Shown here: piece after piece, positions 2,446 through 48,624 of the stretch
How positions within the stretch are numbered: the stretch's first letter is position 1
Layout of the letters: each line of letters opens with the position of its first letter
Assembly (NCBI RefSeq): GCF_000058485.1
Contig: NC_008278.1
Coordinates: forward strand, 6,690,962-6,754,961
DNA from: Frankia alni ACN14a
GTDB taxonomy: Bacteria; Actinomycetota; Actinomycetes; Frankiales; Frankiaceae
Length of the DNA: 64,000 bases
Direction of reading: 5' to 3'
Made by a program: the position numbers and the translations under genes
The notes under the pieces: model-generated
The model's input: only the letters and a program-made list of their open reading frames with translations
Told to the model about the DNA's origin: nothing
The model's database searches: none

Positions 2446-2523
2446 GTCATCATCACCTCGTTCACGGATCAGCCCACCCCTCCCCGCCCCGCCCCGCCGC
2501 TCGCCCTGCCGGCCGGCCCCCTG

Positions 2524-2569
2524 CATATCCAGAGGGATAAATCGGACGCGGGGGGCTCCGGACAAGCAG
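2524..2569. repeat. Palindromic intergenic element A, copy 1 (degenerate)
   Basis: ATATCCAGAGGG, then the conserved loop ATAAATCGGAC, then a right arm GGCTCCGGACAAG. It matches the copies at 23388-23430 and 48188-48232 but its stem is imperfect. It lies about 60 bases downstream of the VOC gene stop (2629) and before the Rieske gene. Confidence 0.75.
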
Positions 2570-2628
2570 AAGGCGGGCGCGGCGCGGCGCGGTTGGCGGC
2601 GGGGAGTCGGGGCGGGGCCGGGTCGGTC

Positions 2629-3039
2629 TCAGTAGAAGACGGGCTCGTCGCAGAGCTCGAAGATGTTGCCCTCGGGGTCGGCGAACTGGGCGACCCGGCC
2701 GTCGGGCTCCTGGCCGTCCTCGTTCACCGTCGGCGCCGGGCCGTGCAGCAGCTTCGCGCCGCGGCGGCCCAGCTCGGCGATGACCTCGTCCATCTTCTCG
2801 ACCTTGAACGACATCAGGACGCGGTTGCGGTCCCAGCCGCGGCGCAGGTTCTCCGCGTCGGGGCCGTTGTCCTTGCGCGCCATGAGCTCCAGCGTGCAGC
2901 CGCCGGTGTTGTACGCCGCGAAGTACTTCGTGGCGTGCCGCAGCGGCAGGCCGAGGACGTTCTCGTAGAACTCCCGCATGGCGGCCAGGTCGTCGACGTA
3001 GACGAGGTTCCAGGACAGCGGCCCGAGCAGCGGCTTCAT
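2629..3039 (-). CDS. VOC-family (glyoxalase/dioxygenase superfamily) protein
   Basis: A 136-residue protein with two beta-alpha-beta-beta-beta units typical of the vicinal-oxygen-chelate fold: first strand LSWNLVYVDDL, helix with FYENVLGLPL, and near the C-terminus VAQFADPEGNIFEL, the usual DPxGNxxEL motif that carries a metal-ligand glutamate. The ATG overlaps the stop of the upstream dioxygenase-like gene (ATGA), so it belongs to the same transcript. In catabolic clusters such proteins act as extradiol dioxygenases, isomerases or product-binding proteins; the exact reaction cannot be deduced. Confidence 0.85.
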   Translation of the reverse strand: MKPLLGPLSWNLVYVDDLAAMREFYENVLGLPLRHATKYFAAYNTGGCTLELMARKDNGPDAENLRRGWDRNRVLMSFKVEKMDEVIAELGRRGAKLLHGPAPTVNEDGQEPDGRVAQFADPEGNIFELCDEPVFY

Positions 3040-22427: not shown

Positions 22428-23273
22428 GTGCCCGTGCCGCCGTTCCGCCTTCCCGACCTCGATCTCGACCTGCCGATCTGCCTGACCTGCGGGGTGCAGT
22501 ACGGCGCCGAGCGGGTCGACTGCCCGGTCTGCGAGGACGAGCGGCAGTACGTCGGGTGGGAGGGGCAGCGCTGGACGTCGCTGGCCCGGCTGCGCGCCGA
22601 GGGCTACCACGGCGTGCTGCGCCCGGAGGGCGAGCGGGTGACCGGCGTCGGCGCCGAGCCGAAGATCTCCATCGGGCAGCGGGCGCTGCTCGTGCAGACG
22701 GACGCGGGCAACATCCTCTGGGACTGCGTGCCCTTCCTCGACGACGACCTCGGCGGCCGGGTCGCCGAACTCGGCGGGGTCACCGCCATCGCGGTCAGCC
22801 ACCCGCACTTCTACGGAGCGATGGTCGACTGGAGCCGGGCGTTCGGCGGGGCCCCGATCTACGTCCACGCCGCGGACGCCGAGTGGCTCGGCCGACCGGA
22901 CGGCGCCGTCGAGCTGTGGTCCGGCGACGCGCTGACGATCGGCGCCGGGCTGACCCTGATCAACGGCGGGGTGCACTTCGCCGGCGGCACGGTCCTGCAC
23001 TGGGCGCAGGGCGAGGGCGGGCGGGGGGCGCTGTTCTCCGGCGACATCCTGCAGGTGGTCCTCGACCGCCGGTGGGTGAGCTTCATGTACAGCTACCCGA
23101 ACTACATCCCGGAGCGGCCCAGCGTCGTCCGCCGGGCGCTGGACCTGCTCGAACCGTTCGACTTCGACGCCGTCTACGGCGCGTTCTGGCAGACCGTGGT
23201 CCGCGCCGACGGCCGGGCCGCCGTGCGCCGCTCCGCCGACCGCTACCTCCGCTTCGTCGCCGACACCCCGTAG
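22428..23273 (+). CDS. MBL-fold metallo-hydrolase-like protein with N-terminal zinc ribbon
   Basis: A 281-residue protein. Four cysteines, C18-x2-C21 and C32-x2-C35, form a likely zinc knuckle. The remainder looks like a metallo-beta-lactamase fold: a VQTDAGNILWDC strand, then H125-P-H127 in SHPHFYG, H183 in GGVHF and D206 in FSGDILQ. The canonical HxHxDH motif lacks its Asp-His pair (Y129, G130), so one metal site is probably altered. It follows the monooxygenase/reductase genes and may hydrolyse a thioester, lactone or ester in the pathway. No experimentally known close relative comes to mind. Confidence 0.75.
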   Translation: MPVPPFRLPDLDLDLPICLTCGVQYGAERVDCPVCEDERQYVGWEGQRWTSLARLRAEGYHGVLRPEGERVTGVGAEPKISIGQRALLVQTDAGNILWDCVPFLDDDLGGRVAELGGVTAIAVSHPHFYGAMVDWSRAFGGAPIYVHAADAEWLGRPDGAVELWSGDALTIGAGLTLINGGVHFAGGTVLHWAQGEGGRGALFSGDILQVVLDRRWVSFMYSYPNYIPERPSVVRRALDLLEPFDFDAVYGAFWQTVVRADGRAAVRRSADRYLRFVADTP

Positions 23274-23387
23274 CCGCCACTCTCCGCACCCGCCCTCCTG
23301 CCCGCCGCCCGCCCGCCCGCCTGCCCGCCCGCTGCCCGCCCGCCGCCCGCCCGCCTGCCCGCCCGCTGCCCGCCCGCTGCCCGCCCG
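23274..23387. repeat. Low-complexity CCCGCC/CTGCCCGCC tandem
   Basis: Over 100 bases made almost only of CCCGCCCGCC and GCCTGCCC/GCTGCCC steps, an expanded C-rich tract with an 11-23 bp period. It leads directly into palindromic element A copy 2. Confidence 0.75.
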
Positions 23388-23430
23388 CTTATCCAGAGGG
23401 ATAAATCGGACACCCAAGCCTCTGGATAAC
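23388..23430. repeat. Palindromic intergenic element A, copy 2
   Basis: Arms TTATCCAGAGG (23389-23399) and CCTCTGGATAA (23419-23429) pair perfectly around a loop starting GATAAATCGGACAC. Same design as 48188-48232, with A-T pairs replacing G-C pairs in the stem. It lies between the MBL gene and the kinase gene. Confidence 0.85.
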
Positions 23431-23509
23431 TATGGGGTGGGCCGGTCGGACGCGGCCTGCGAGACTTCTGGGCCGATGGCTGGACCGGCGTGGCTCCCGG
23501 AGGTCTCCG

Positions 23510-25198
23510 ATGGCGCAGCACGACCCTCTCCGCGACGACGACCCCCGCCGGGTCGGGCCCTACACGCTGCTGGAGCGCGTCGGTGCCGGCGGCATGGGCG
23601 TCGTCTACCTGGCGCGCGACTCCGTCGGTCGGCGGGTCGCGCTGAAGATCCCGGGCAGCCCCGGCCGTGCCAACCAGATCCCGCACTCGCACGAGCGCTT
23701 CGTCGCTGAGGTGGCGACCCACCGGACGCTGACGAGCGAGCGGGTGGTCCGCTTCCTCGACGCCGACGTGCACGGCCGCCCGCCCTGGGTCGCCCTCGAG
23801 TACGTCCAGGGCGCCAACCTGAGCCAGGTCGTGTCCGAGACCGGCGTCTTTTCCCACCGCTTCCTGCTGGCCCTCGCCGCCGAGCTCGCCGAGGCGGTGG
23901 CCGACATCCACGCGCACGGCATCGTCCACCGGGACCTGCACCCGGCGAACGTCATCTGCCTGCCGAACGGCATCAAGGTCATCGACTTCGGCCTGGCCCG
24001 CATCCAGGCCGACGACGAAAGCCTCATCACCAAGGGCCCGCCGATCGGCGTCCCGGCCTTCATGGCGCCGGAACGCTTCGCGGGCGTCGTCACCCGGGCC
24101 TGCGACGTCTTCGCCTGGGGATGCTGCGTGGCCTACGCCGCCGCCGGGACGCCGCCGTTTCCCAACGTGGCGCCGCGCGACGCCTACGCCGCCGTCGCGG
24201 GCTCCCCGCCGGTCCTGACGAACCTGCCCGGCGACCTCGCCGACCTGGTCGGCTGGGCGCTCGCGAAGAAGCCGGAAGACCGGCCGACCGCATCCCGGGT
24301 GGCCGCCGAGCTCCAGGGCCTGGGTGTCCCGGTGACTCGCCCGGCCGCCCGCCCCTGGCCCGCGCAGGCGCTCCCGCTGATCAGCCAGGCCGTCCCCGGT
24401 CCGGCCATCGCCGGTACAGACGGCTGGATCGACGGCCCGCACGCCGGGACCGCCCGCTCGGGAAGCGGCGACTCGGGAGTGGTTTACCGGGGCCCCGGCG
24501 GCTCGGGAGTGCATAACTCACGGATCGGCGACTCGGAACTCGGCGACTCGGAACTCGGGGACTCGGAACTCGGGGACTCGAGGATCGGGGACTCGGGCCT
24601 GATCACGACGCCGAGCCAGCCGAGCCGCCCAGAGCACCCGAACCACCGCGAGCCGGCGCCGATCGGTCCCCGCGGCGCCGGCGCGGTGGTGGCAGCGGTG
24701 GTCGCAGCGGCGTTCTGCCTGTTGGGCCTCGCGCTCACGGCAGGGGGGTACGCCGCGGGCGACGTCACCGGCCCGGTCTGCGCCGGACTGGTGGCCGCCG
24801 CGGCGGGAGTGCTGGCCCTCGTCCGGGCCGGTCGCCGTGCCGGCCCGGTCGCCCCGGTCGCCCCGGCGGGTGCGGCGGGTGCGGCGGGTGCGGCGGGTGC
24901 GGCGGGTGCGGCGGGTGCGGGGGCCCCGCGCCCGCCGGTCGGCGTACCCGCCTGGTTCGTGCCCGTAACCGTCGCCGTCGGCGGCGTCGCCGGCGGTGTG
25001 TTCGGACTGCTCCTCGCCCGCGGGCTGTGGGCCGGCAGCCCGCGGGCGGCCGCGGCGTCGGAGCTCGCCCTGGCCTGCTGCTTCGCGGCGGCGTTCGCGC
25101 TGTACCTGCGAGGTTCGGATCCAACCCGGTCGGCGGGGCACCCGACCCCGCGATCCGGAATCAGGTCACCAGGCGGGAGTGGCGGGACGCCTTCGTGA
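23510..25198 (+). CDS. Membrane-bound Ser/Thr protein kinase (PknB-type)
   Basis: A 562-residue Hanks-type kinase. The kinase domain (about 17-300) has glycine loop GAGGMG 25-30, K46, HRDLHPAN at 140-147, DFG at 159-161 and APE at 186-188, so it should be active. The juxtamembrane part (about 345-400) has a GDSEL tandem (15-bp units at 24526-24596). The C-terminus has about four hydrophobic helices with an Ala-Gly-Ala linker between the second and third. No PASTA or other extracellular sensor is seen. GGAGG six bases before ATG 23510 fixes the start. Its 3' end overlaps the convergent Nudix gene by 38 bases. Confidence 0.93.
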   Translation: MAQHDPLRDDDPRRVGPYTLLERVGAGGMGVVYLARDSVGRRVALKIPGSPGRANQIPHSHERFVAEVATHRTLTSERVVRFLDADVHGRPPWVALEYVQGANLSQVVSETGVFSHRFLLALAAELAEAVADIHAHGIVHRDLHPANVICLPNGIKVIDFGLARIQADDESLITKGPPIGVPAFMAPERFAGVVTRACDVFAWGCCVAYAAAGTPPFPNVAPRDAYAAVAGSPPVLTNLPGDLADLVGWALAKKPEDRPTASRVAAELQGLGVPVTRPAARPWPAQALPLISQAVPGPAIAGTDGWIDGPHAGTARSGSGDSGVVYRGPGGSGVHNSRIGDSELGDSELGDSELGDSRIGDSGLITTPSQPSRPEHPNHREPAPIGPRGAGAVVAAVVAAAFCLLGLALTAGGYAAGDVTGPVCAGLVAAAAGVLALVRAGRRAGPVAPVAPAGAAGAAGAAGAAGAAGAGAPRPPVGVPAWFVPVTVAVGGVAGGVFGLLLARGLWAGSPRAAAASELALACCFAAAFALYLRGSDPTRSAGHPTPRSGIRSPGGSGGTPS

Positions 25199-45003: not shown

Positions 45004-48000
45004 ATGAGTGAGACGGCCGAGCACGGTACCGGCGCCGCGAACGCCACGGCATCCCCGTCCGGCGCTGTACCCCCCTCCGGTGCCACGGCCACGGCCGGGA
45101 CCGGCGACGAGCCGGGGTTCCGCTACGACGCCCGGCTCGCCGCGGACATCGAGCGCCGCTGGCAGCGCCGGTGGGCCGACGAGGGCACGTTCAACTCGCC
45201 GAACCCGGTCGGGCCGCTCGCCGCGGGCTTCGACGAGGTCGCCGGGCGCGAGCCGTTCTACATCATGGACATGTTCCCGTACCCCAGCGGCACCGGCCTG
45301 CACGTCGGTCACCCGCTCGGGTACATCGGCACCGACGTGTTCGCCCGCTACCTGCGCATGTCCGGCCGCCACGTGCTGCACCCGTTCGGCTACGACGCCT
45401 TCGGCCTGCCCGCGGAGCAGTACGCCATCAACACCGGCCAGCACCCGCGCACGACCACCGACGCCAACATCGCCAACATGCGCCGGCAGCTGTCCCGGCT
45501 GGGGCTCGGCCACGACACCCGCCGCGAGATAGCCACGACCGACGTCGGGTACTACCGCTGGACGCAGTGGATCTTCGAGCAGATCTTCGACGCCTGGTAC
45601 GACCCGCAGGCCGGCCGGGCGCGACCGATCGCCGAGCTGATCGCCGAGTTCGAGGCCGGGACCCGCTCGCCGGCGGCCGGCCCCGCCGCCGGCACCACCG
45701 CCGTGTCGGTCGACGCCGTGCGCGCCGCGAACCCGACGGGCCTGCCCTGGGCCGAGCTGGACCGGGTCACCCGCCGCCGGGTCGTCGACGCCCACCGGCT
45801 GGCCTACATCTCCGAGCAGCTCGTCAACTGGTGCCCCGGGCTCGGCACCGTGCTGGCGAACGAGGAGGTCACCGCCGAGGGCCGCAGTGACATCGGGAAC
45901 TACCCGGTGTTCCGCCGGCCGCTGCGGCAGTGGGTGCTGCGGATCACCGCCTACGCCGAGCGGCTGGTCGACGACCTCGACCTGGTCGACTGGTCCGACT
46001 CGATCAAGCAGATGCAGCGCAACTGGATCGGCCCGAGCGACGGCGCCGGCGTCGAGTTCGCCGTCGTCCCCCCGTCCGGCTCGGCCGGGGCGGCGCCCGG
46101 CCAGCGCATCGAGGTGTACACCACCCGGCCCGACACCCTCGCCGGGGCGACCTTCCTGGTGCTCGCCCCCGAACATCCGCAGGTCGACGCGCTGGTCGCC
46201 GACGCGTGGCCGGCCGGCACCCCCGGCGCCTGGCGCTTCCCCGCCGGCCGCGGCCCGGCCGTCGGCGAGGCCGCCGAGGTGGCGGCCGAGGAGGTGGCGG
46301 CCGAGGAGGTGGGAGCCGCCGAGGTCGAGGCCGCCGCCGCGGACCCCGCCTGGACGCCGCGCGCCGCCGTCGAGGCGTACCGGGCCTTCGCCGCGCGGCG
46401 CAGCGACCGCCAGCGCGGCGAGGAGGTCGACCGCACGGGCGTGTTCACCGGTGCCTACGTGCGCAACCCGGTGGGCGGCGGGCTGCTCCCCGTCTTCCTC
46501 GCGGACTACGTGCTCGTCGGCTACGGCACCGGCGCGATCATGGCCGTGCCGGCGCACGACAGCCGGGACTTCAGCTTCGCCCGCGCGTTCGACCTGCCGA
46601 TCCCGGCGGTGCTGGCGCCGGACGAGCAGTGGTACGCCGAGCACCGGGTGACCCCGGGCGCCCCGCCGTCCGCGTGGCCTGAGGCGTTCGGCGGCGAGGG
46701 TGCCTACCTGCCCGGGCCCGCGGGTACGCCGGTGCTCGCCGGCCTGACCAAGCCCGACGCGATCAAGACGACGGTGCGGTGGTTGGAGGACGGCGGCCAC
46801 GGCCGGCTGGCCCGGTCCTACCGGCTGCGGGACTGGCTGTTCTCCCGGCAGCGCTACTGGGGCGAGCCGTTCCCGATCGTCTTCGACGACGACGGCCTGC
46901 CGTACGCCGTCCCGGACGAGCTGCTGCCCGTCGAACTGCCCGAGATGACCGACTTCCGGCCGACGGCGATGGCCGAGGACGACGAGAGCGATCCGGTGCC
47001 GCCGCTGGCCCGCGTGGCCGACTGGGCGAGCGTCACGCTCGACCTCGGTGACGGCCCGAAGCGCTACCGGCGCGAGACGAACACGATGCCGCAGTGGGCC
47101 GGGTCCTGCTGGTACCACCTGCGCTACCTGGACCCGACCAACACCGAGCGGTTCGTCGACGAGACCGTCGAGCGGTACTGGCTGGCCAAGCCGGGCGCGG
47201 CGGCCGGCGACGGCGGCGTCGACCTCTACGTCGGCGGCGTCGAGCACGCGGTGCTGCACCTGCTCTACGCCCGGTTCTGGCAGAAGGTGCTCTACGACCT
47301 GGGGCACGTGTCGTCCAAGGAGCCGTTCAAGCGGCTGTTCAACCAGGGCTACATCCAGGCCGACGCGTTCACCGACGCCCGCGGGATGTACGTCCCGGCG
47401 GCCGAGGTGAAGCAGACCGACGACGGCCGCTTCACCCACCACGGCGCGCCGGTCGACCGCCGCTCCGGCAAGATGGGCAAGAGCCTGAAGAACAGCGTCA
47501 GCCCGGACGAGATGTACGAGCGGTTCGGCGCCGACACGCTGCGCGTCTACGAGATGGCGATGGGTCCGCTCGACGCCGACCGGCCCTGGCACACCGACGA
47601 CATCGTCGGCTCCCACCGGTTCCTGCAGCGCCTGTGGCGCGCGGTCGTCGACGAGGGCAGCGGCACGGTCGCCGTCTCCGACGAGCAGCTGGACGCCGAG
47701 GCCACCCGCGTCCTGCACCGGACGATCATCACGTTGGCGGCGGAGTACGCGGGCCTGCGGTTCAACACGGCCGTCGCCCGGCTCATCGAGCTGACGAACT
47801 ACGTCTCGAAGCGGTACGGCCAGGCCGCGACGCCCCGGGCGCTGGCCGAGCCGCTCGTCCTGATGGTGGCGCCGCTGGCCCCGCACATCGCGGAGGAGCT
47901 CTGGACCCGGCTCGGGCACAGCGAGTCGGTGAGCCGCGCGGCCTTCCCCGTGGGCGACCCGGCGCTGGCCGCCGAGTCCGAGCGGACCATCCCGGTCCAG

Positions 48001-48168
48001 GTGAACGGGAAGGTGCGGTTCACCCTCCAGGTACCCGACGGTGCCGCAGAGCCCGTGATCCGCGAGCTGCTCACCGCGCACCCCGACTACGCGCGCCAGA
48101 CCGAGGGCCGAACCATCAAGAAGACCATCATCGTGCCCGGCCGCATCGTCAACATCGCCCTGGGCTGA
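45004..48168 (+). CDS. leuS: Leucyl-tRNA synthetase
   Basis: A 1054-residue class Ia synthetase. The HIGH-type motif is H100-VGH (YPSGTGLHVGHPLGY) and the KMSKS-type motif is GKMGKSLKN near residue 825. Other landmarks are FGLPAEQYAI, the editing domain (VEVYTTRPDTLAGATF-like segment, GTGAIMAVPAHDSRD) and the C-terminal anticodon-binding helices. It is about 100 residues longer than common actinobacterial LeuRS: a disordered N-terminal 35 residues and an Ala/Glu-Val tandem insert (EEVAAEEV) at about 420-445, in the editing domain. GGGGTGG precedes the ATG. Function: charging of tRNA-Leu. Confidence 0.97.
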   Translation: MSETAEHGTGAANATASPSGAVPPSGATATAGTGDEPGFRYDARLAADIERRWQRRWADEGTFNSPNPVGPLAAGFDEVAGREPFYIMDMFPYPSGTGLHVGHPLGYIGTDVFARYLRMSGRHVLHPFGYDAFGLPAEQYAINTGQHPRTTTDANIANMRRQLSRLGLGHDTRREIATTDVGYYRWTQWIFEQIFDAWYDPQAGRARPIAELIAEFEAGTRSPAAGPAAGTTAVSVDAVRAANPTGLPWAELDRVTRRRVVDAHRLAYISEQLVNWCPGLGTVLANEEVTAEGRSDIGNYPVFRRPLRQWVLRITAYAERLVDDLDLVDWSDSIKQMQRNWIGPSDGAGVEFAVVPPSGSAGAAPGQRIEVYTTRPDTLAGATFLVLAPEHPQVDALVADAWPAGTPGAWRFPAGRGPAVGEAAEVAAEEVAAEEVGAAEVEAAAADPAWTPRAAVEAYRAFAARRSDRQRGEEVDRTGVFTGAYVRNPVGGGLLPVFLADYVLVGYGTGAIMAVPAHDSRDFSFARAFDLPIPAVLAPDEQWYAEHRVTPGAPPSAWPEAFGGEGAYLPGPAGTPVLAGLTKPDAIKTTVRWLEDGGHGRLARSYRLRDWLFSRQRYWGEPFPIVFDDDGLPYAVPDELLPVELPEMTDFRPTAMAEDDESDPVPPLARVADWASVTLDLGDGPKRYRRETNTMPQWAGSCWYHLRYLDPTNTERFVDETVERYWLAKPGAAAGDGGVDLYVGGVEHAVLHLLYARFWQKVLYDLGHVSSKEPFKRLFNQGYIQADAFTDARGMYVPAAEVKQTDDGRFTHHGAPVDRRSGKMGKSLKNSVSPDEMYERFGADTLRVYEMAMGPLDADRPWHTDDIVGSHRFLQRLWRAVVDEGSGTVAVSDEQLDAEATRVLHRTIITLAAEYAGLRFNTAVARLIELTNYVSKRYGQAATPRALAEPLVLMVAPLAPHIAEELWTRLGHSESVSRAAFPVGDPALAAESERTIPVQVNGKVRFTLQVPDGAAEPVIRELLTAHPDYARQTEGRTIKKTIIVPGRIVNIALG

Positions 48169-48187
48169 CCGCTCCCGCCACCACCCT

Positions 48188-48232
48188 GCTTATCCGGAGG
48201 GATAAATCGGACACGAAACCCTCCGGATAAGC
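48188..48232. repeat. Palindromic intergenic element A, copy 3 (perfect stem)
   Basis: GCTTATCCGGAGGG (48188-48201) and its exact complement (48219-48232) form a 14-bp stem with the 17-base loop ATAAATCGGACACGAAA. It begins 20 bases after the leuS stop, between convergent genes, so it may act as the leuS terminator. Confidence 0.88.
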
Positions 48233-48264
48233 AGAAGATCCGGAAGCGGCCGAGGGGAGACTGC

Positions 48265-48624
48265 TTAGCGGCCGCCGGGACCCGGGGGGCCGGGCTGGGC
48301 GGGCAGGTCGAGATGCTCGCCCTCGCCATCCGTGGCCGCGGCGTCGTCGACGACCTCGCCGTCGATCACCGGGCCGCGCCGGCCGGCCAGCACCGAGCGG
48401 CGGCGGATCGCCTGGCGGGGGTCGACCGGGCCGGTGAGCCGGTCGGGATCGACCCCGAGGAAGTCACCGTTCGCCACGTTCGCGCGCATCCGGCGCAGGC
48501 TCTTCGAGAGCATGAAGAACAGCCCGGTGGAGACCACGATCAGCCCCACGACGATGAGCAGTCCGAGACCGCCCGCGCTGCTCTCCTGCTCGGCCAGCAC
48601 GGAACCGGCGAAGATCTCGTTCAC
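48265..48624 (-). CDS. Small single-pass membrane protein
   Basis: A 119-residue protein of unknown function. One membrane helix at about 19-40 (LGLLIVVGLIVVSTGLFFML) is followed by a basic stretch (SKSLRRMRANV) and a cytoplasmic tail with FLGVDPDRL and an acidic Pro/Gly-rich end. GAGGA precedes the GTG start. Small proteins of this shape are common beside mca in actinobacteria, where their role is unknown. Confidence 0.78.
   Translation of the reverse strand: MNEIFAGSVLAEQESSAGGLGLLIVVGLIVVSTGLFFMLSKSLRRMRANVANGDFLGVDPDRLTGPVDPRQAIRRRSVLAGRRGPVIDGEVVDDAAATDGEGEHLDLPAQPGPPGPGGR

Follow-up and report, generated by a model that had tools for sequence, protein, structure and literature searches.

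A genus-wide family of gene-end hairpins with a conserved loop and changing stems in Frankia

Behind the leucyl-tRNA synthetase gene (leuS) of Frankia alni ACN14a lies a palindrome whose loop recurs at two other places in the surrounding DNA. Frankia fixes nitrogen in alder roots. We asked what this palindrome is, how far it extends across genomes, and what its constant loop and changing stems might mean. The window, that is, the whole stretch of DNA analysed, is 64,000 nucleotides long (positions 6690962–6754961 of a single 7,497,934-bp contig). An earlier note on it had described three intergenic copies and offered a selected hairpin as explanation, possibly a REP-like element, a terminator or a binding site.

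From three copies to a genus-wide family

The three copies were recovered where the earlier note had placed them, and all share GATAAATCGGAC exactly; its positions hold, but the hairpins run slightly further than it gave (Table 1, with all three spans taken from the covariance model). The stems it quoted, CCAGAGG/CCTCTGG in copy 2 and CCGGAGG/CCTCCGG in copy 3, are right. The stem of copy 3 is perfect over 16 bp (48186–48201 paired with 48219–48234), and GGATAAATCGGAC lies at 48200–48212. Fold z-scores are −7.3 for copy 3, −3.6 for copy 2 and −1.1 for copy 1, whose stem is damaged and whose hairpin is not the minimum-energy fold. The statement that each copy follows a gene's stop is accurate for copies 2 and 3 (109 and 15 nt past the stops of plus-strand genes, as called by our own codon-usage script) and needs qualification for copy 1, which does lie 57 nt after the stop of a minus-strand gene (2629–3039) but is antisense to it. 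Directly before copy 2 (window 23289–23389) is a GC-rich tandem repeat of about 2.9 units of 34 bp, beginning CCCGCCCGCTG. The numbers of tRNA and tmRNA genes found in the window were both 0.

Table 1. Hairpin copies in the window and the genes beside them
Feature	Position	Strand	Basis or context
Copy 3 hairpin	48184..48236	+	covariance model; convergent gap, 15 nt behind leuS stop
Copy 2 hairpin, TTATCCAGAGG/CCTCTGGATAA with GGATAAATCGGAC	23383..23435	+	between two plus-strand genes, sense
Copy 1 hairpin, same loop, damaged stem	2519..2571	+	between two minus-strand genes
Leucyl-tRNA synthetase gene (leuS), neighbour of copy 3	45004..48168	+	PF13603, PF00133, PF08264
Convergent open reading frame, neighbour of copy 3	48265..48624	-	no Pfam match
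Metallo-beta-lactamase-fold protein, upstream of copy 2	22428..23273	+	PF00753
Protein kinase, downstream of copy 2	23510..25198	+	PF00069
Glyoxalase-family protein, neighbour of copy 1	2629..3039	-	PF00903

Within the window alone, GGATAAATCGGAC with up to two mismatches gives 4 matches against 1.4 expected, and the window's evidence is therefore weak by itself. The whole genome holds 12 exact occurrences against 0 for a reversed control; allowing up to two mismatches raises these numbers to 75 and 15. A covariance model seeded from the copies (R1) and run genome-wide returned 81 rows; many hairpins were matched on both strands, and the rows reduce to 57 distinct places. Copy 3 thus belongs to a hairpin family with 57 places in a 7.50-Mb genome, the weakest of which are uncertain (for example L150 and L151, at 29 bits). 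The counterpart of L151 is in place in Frankia sp. QA3. So further copies do exist, and the phenomenon is larger than first described, a family and not three copies. The highest identity between any two copies in the genome is 0.92; no near-identical pairs were found, and a recent transposition burst was rejected on that ground. In searches of the literature on Frankia and on such hairpins generally, conducted mostly outside subscription journals, the element was not found.

Each copy is a 15–17-bp hairpin carrying the loop-side motif GGAYNNNNCGGRC. The loop is ~18 nt long and its conserved motif 13 nt; on the loop side GGGA, C25, G27 and C29 are nearly invariant, and the next four bases vary. 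In 91 copies drawn from QA3 and the window's genome (those of QA3 being the best-scoring among the matches listed, 36 places in 31 loci, plus later-matched ones), 87% of the cells of the stem and 77% of those of a small inner helix are paired, with pair 18–52 unpaired in 40 of 91. Conservation within the element is highest in the loop, a constancy that is partly forced because the detection models were seeded on it; support independent of that seeding comes from other Frankia species, in which the same loop sits over wholly different stems. By eye, the copies of the window's genome fall into three stem groups: one beginning CCCTGCTTATCC, one beginning TTCCTTGCC, and one whose outer arms are GGGAGCGGCGC...GCGCTCTCCC.

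Several loci have features of their own. A stem subgroup (L131, L133, L137, L139, L143, L175 and L179) has an extra outer inverted repeat, GGGAGCGGCGC ... GCGCTCTCCCACGC. At L116 (7216–7269) the loop is destroyed and the stem intact, with a paired change relative to the QA3 ortholog; downstream at L116 (3001), a plain long inverted repeat follows the element in both strains, and some gaps therefore hold both kinds of hairpin. There are also signs of local copying at the hairpins: half-elements are repeated next to complete ones, a complete unit recurs 84 bp away in one case, and in another three hairpins follow each other (L134 3001–3100, L161, L170, L177, L182, L212, L130 3001–3137 and L200 7555–7744).

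Among the matches listed, R1 found the family in 12 of 13 Frankia genomes and in 0 of 45 others; a second model, R2, built from the 91 copies, found it in all 13. A pattern scan of one genome per species (84,980 species, the window's own genome possibly not among them) located the main stem-and-loop string only in QA3, in 5 stretches. Of 22 genomes from the same taxonomic family outside the genus, 1 (G022) had a match at E ≤0.001 among those listed, and its sequence has no such loop; a match in G030 had E 0.015. The sister-genus matches in G022 (E 5e-5) and G020 (E 0.001) were rejected as sequences without the full motif, and no convincing copy outside Frankia was seen among the matches listed for the genomes examined. 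These searches show the family to be restricted to the genus Frankia among those genomes.

Maintenance and replacement of the stems

An initial test on 28 aligned copies, covering a stem of 17 pairs and the 3-pair inner helix, counted 47 changes on both sides of a pair, compared with 17.7 in shuffles. With 91 copies the count rose to 142 against 53 shuffled, a value reached in 0 of 500 shuffles, and slid controls were far lower; copies lacking stem covariation, a result that the earlier note had named as counting against its proposal, were not what the alignment contained.

Comparison of orthologous loci gave a similar outcome. QA3 stretches were fetched by synteny and copies from the window's genome were paired with them by their flanks. 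In 28 such pairs, 32 stem pairs had changed on both sides and still paired, against a shuffled mean of 7.3 (maximum 16 in 2000), with 4 of the 32 contributed by L115/L176, whose orthology is doubtful. The 472 stem cells include 353 that are unchanged and 8 that changed on both sides without pairing; one-sided changes keep the pair in both strains in 15 cases and produce a mismatch in one strain in 64. Identity over 26 pairs is 0.88 in the loop, 0.82–0.83 in the arms and 0.64 and 0.67 in the 20-nt flanks. Both alignments show pairing maintained while the stem sequence changes.

Both flanks could be located in QA3 for 34 places, and the gap between them holds a same-orientation element in 26, an element of a different type facing the other way in 1, no element in 5 and an unclear arrangement in 2. 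The element is missing from QA3 at L110 (3001), L118, L123, L143 and L146; at these five sites the gaps differ more widely, and L146 has TAG on both sides. A clean empty site with target duplication was not seen among the two-flank sites. At L132/L179 and L109/L262, the elements that two strains carry in a shared gap belong to different stem groups and face opposite ways. Overall, orientation relative to QA3 is the same in 31 cases and opposite in 1, and copies are inherited at orthologous places.

Part of this pattern favours a REP-like, non-autonomous mobile hairpin, whose loop would be a single-stranded DNA site for a Y1/HUH-type or other enzyme, and which would be tolerated behind genes as the least harmful place, with any effect on termination incidental. 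The gain or loss between strains (5 of 34 places), the two gaps with an other-type element turned around, the half-element duplications and the occurrence in both orientations, with the loop conserved whatever the gene strand, all speak for it. Covariation of stems at fixed places with unchanged orientation, the lack of near-identical copies and the missing clean empty site speak against it. We regard this explanation, the main rival to the one preferred below, as rather unlikely.

The relation between stems within and between genomes depends on the strain compared. With QA3 (20 loci), orthologous likeness is 0.84, against 0.71–0.77 within genomes. With G012 (14 loci) the order is reversed, a sign of genome-wide stem rewriting in this relative: orthologs share a stem identity of 0.64, below the 0.72 among copies of the window's genome and the 0.69 among those of G012, and a result as strong arose in 5 of 5000 label swaps. 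Two of these 14 pairs are in opposite orientation (L109/L262 and, by reading, L119/L267); for the 12 loci left when they are removed, the values are 0.71, 0.74 and 0.67, with 6 of 2048 arrangements as good. Flanks of the loci shared with G012 are mostly 88–97% identical. Some stems are kept (the outer arms of L142/L258 are identical, and L133/L066 has 0.93), and the stem type has changed at L103, L120, L121, L124, L126 and L144. Of the 13 matched places 12 have kept their orientation, a sign of change in situ and not of fresh insertion. Intermediate stems occur (L206 and L276), and given these the change may be gradual.

A tentative scheme, which we consider unlikely as a whole, would unite these patterns. 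In it, a genus-specific machine would recognise the loop as a constant address, and the stems would be rewritten in place and in concert by copying from family members, giving species stem 'dialects' at orthologous gene ends, with the hairpins doubling as terminators. If true, this would be genome-wide concerted evolution of dispersed hairpins. Whole stem types swapped in place at orthologous genes, between flanks 93–97% identical, would also offer an unusual view of small-repeat homogenisation in a bacterial genome.

Paired changes do not have to reflect selection. Template switching between the arms of a hairpin makes them without it, and neutral repeats altered by such copying (quasipalindrome correction) or by gene conversion would give paired changes of this kind. 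The excess of within-genome over orthologous likeness in the comparison with G012 is also in keeping with neutral repeats. Against that account, the elements change less than the sequence beside them, their gene context departs strongly from random, and a single loop is combined with wholly different stems; mismatches such as pair 18–52 also persist where copying should erase them. We consider it distinctly improbable. The 57 places, the covariation across the 91 copies and the orthologous loci, and the position behind genes support the proposal that the hairpin is selected and its loop conserved; on this comparative evidence the family is real, genus-wide and selected or at least actively maintained.

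Gene context and candidate functions

Of the 57 places, 56 could be assigned to a gap between genes: 27 convergent, 26 tandem and 3 divergent. Control gaps of at least 80 bp (n = 213, drawn from the window and twenty 20-kb QA3 stretches) comprise 30 convergent, 120 tandem and 63 divergent. Convergent gaps are therefore enriched (27/56 versus 30/213, p 2e-7) and divergent ones scarce (3/56 versus 63/213, p 8e-5). The distance from stop to element is often <35 nt. Sense orientation relative to the nearest stop is mildly preferred, with 34 of 52 copies (p 0.036); copies between tandem genes are sense in 15 cases and antisense in 11, or 27 versus 18 when pooled with QA3 (p 0.23). Antisense copies, for example L119, retain the loop.

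The sense preference, the short distance from the stop and the conservation of the loop motif and small inner helix in their structural context would suit a sense-strand signal in the 3' untranslated region, whose loop an RNA-binding protein would bind or an RNase would cut, so setting mRNA stability. Such a signal is improbable: among the 26 tandem copies are 11 that keep the motif while running antisense to the gene whose stop precedes them, and Rfam holds no such family. The antisense copies that keep the loop count against any function of the loop in RNA alone.

The element appears to exchange with plain hairpins. With the element masked, another stem of at least 11 pairs is present in 16 of 39 convergent gaps with an element versus 35 of 49 without (p 0.005), gaps from the window's genome and QA3 being pooled so that orthologous ones are not independent. 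Restricted to gaps of 60–160 nt, the comparison gives 9 of 25 versus 25 of 35 (p 0.009), and for 60–130 nt 7 of 21 versus 15 of 24, which is not significant (p 0.07). Another stem of at least 9 pairs is present in 22 of the 39 element gaps.

The leuS end offers a direct view. A leucyl-tRNA synthetase (LeuRS) of the window's type is encoded in 8 of the 13 Frankia genomes, at 84–100% identity. The best match in the other 5 is 30–36% identical, and the genus therefore holds two LeuRS types. Seven of the 8 genomes could be read at the leuS end (G010, missed by our stop pattern, was left out), and 5 of the 7 have the element there (the window's genome, G003, G011, G012 and G009, the last with an extra arm). 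In G008 a plain 14-bp hairpin stands directly behind the stop instead, and in G002 no element was found within the stretch remaining on its contig. The stems differ between genomes, and each has a second arm to match: CTGCTTATCCGGAGGG in the window's genome and G003, CTGCCCTTCCAGAGGG in G011 and CTTGCCCTTTTGGGGGG in G012. The copy 2 site beside the kinase gene holds intact elements in G003 and G012 and one with a damaged 5' arm in G011; the copy 1 site in G012 (L087) has an intact hairpin with another stem.

The reading that we prefer, with a probability of about one half, is that of a genus-wide 3'-end hairpin acting as a two-way terminator or insulator, its loop read by a putative partner. 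The hairpin would form in RNA transcribed out of a gene, whichever the strand, and would end or insulate transcription between neighbouring units, taking the role that plain GC-rich hairpins have at other genes. Less certainly, a genus-specific protein or RNA would read the loop, because terminator function alone needs no fixed loop; such a reader might aid termination or 3'-end processing, or use the loop as a handle for the spread and rewriting of copies. Of the three functions offered in the earlier note, the terminator fits position and plain-hairpin interchange best, though no U-tract accompanies it; the REP-like label suits the anatomy and genomic distribution but not the lack of REP tags and a transposase; and loop conservation suggests a candidate binding site. 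Several observations weigh against a terminator, namely the missing U-tract, the mild sense preference, the 64 pair-breaking one-sided changes and the other stems in 22 of 39 gaps. A terminator or insulator nevertheless appears the best-supported reading, and it and a REP-like mobile origin could hold together.

To our knowledge, high-GC actinobacteria are largely without the textbook hairpin-plus-U terminator. The family, dispersed, structurally selected and interchangeable with plain gene-end hairpins, is a testable candidate for transcript ending in this group, and its almost invariant loop suggests a partner molecule that one could isolate.

Comparison with known systems

In the window, Rfam 15 gave no match at gathering score, and around copy 3 there were 17 sub-threshold chance matches; membership in a known RNA family was rejected for want of a match at gathering score.

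The hairpins at the ends of IS200/IS605 elements are imperfect, with a loop that could be read as single-stranded DNA. The Frankia element resembles them in both respects, and differs in having no nearby transposase and no guide sequence; an insertion boundary was not found either. Open reading frames between close copies in L106 and L117, considered as possible partner genes, look, by eye only, like ordinary genes. A survey of Frankia insertion sequences has, in its available text, no IS200 entry for ACN14a and does have IS605-type entries (PMC2770080).

As with REP/RAYT systems, the element is a short dispersed intergenic palindrome found mostly in convergent and tandem gaps, in both orientations and sometimes in small clusters. 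REPs are described, in the accessible portion of PMC3733652, with GTAG or CGTC tags and a preference for convergent and tandem gaps; the latter agrees with the distribution seen here and favours a REP-like origin. Against that origin, no conserved tag, GTAG or CGTC, stands at either foot of the hairpin in the 91 copies (the commonest flanking 4-mers are GCCA/GCCT upstream, 5/91, and AAGG downstream, 8/91), the window's genome (G000) has 0 matches to the Y1 transposase (PF01797), and no such transposase is tied to copy number across the genus, where per-genome numbers are rough counts among the candidates scored and weak outliers may escape. None of 10 Y1 loci fetched from relatives carries the element (best score E 0.58). 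REP/RAYT membership was rejected on the absence of tag and Y1 transposase; a partner that is extinct or not of the Y1 type is conceivable. The Frankia element differs further in its 13-nt conserved loop motif, freely changing stems and ~57 copies.

Like Rho-independent terminators, the element places a strong hairpin close behind stops, with damaged stems in copy 1 and some others, and a plain hairpin replaces it at leuS in G008. Unlike them, it has no U-tract, a loop of ~18 nt with a fixed motif, and the form of one dispersed family. None of the 91 copies has TTTT in the 14 nt to either side, and at least 4 T in 12 nt are found in 1 of 91 sense and 3 of 91 antisense, in a genome of 73% GC; a canonical intrinsic terminator was rejected since no run of T directly follows the stem.

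The nearest functional parallel is provided by Haemophilus, in which terminators made of two uptake signals (USS) are described in the available part of PMC5217627. As that text presents them, these too are a dispersed short signal forming gene-end hairpins that are read as terminators. The arrangement is inverted between the two: in Haemophilus the repeated signal builds the stem, whereas in Frankia the stem is free and the loop constant.
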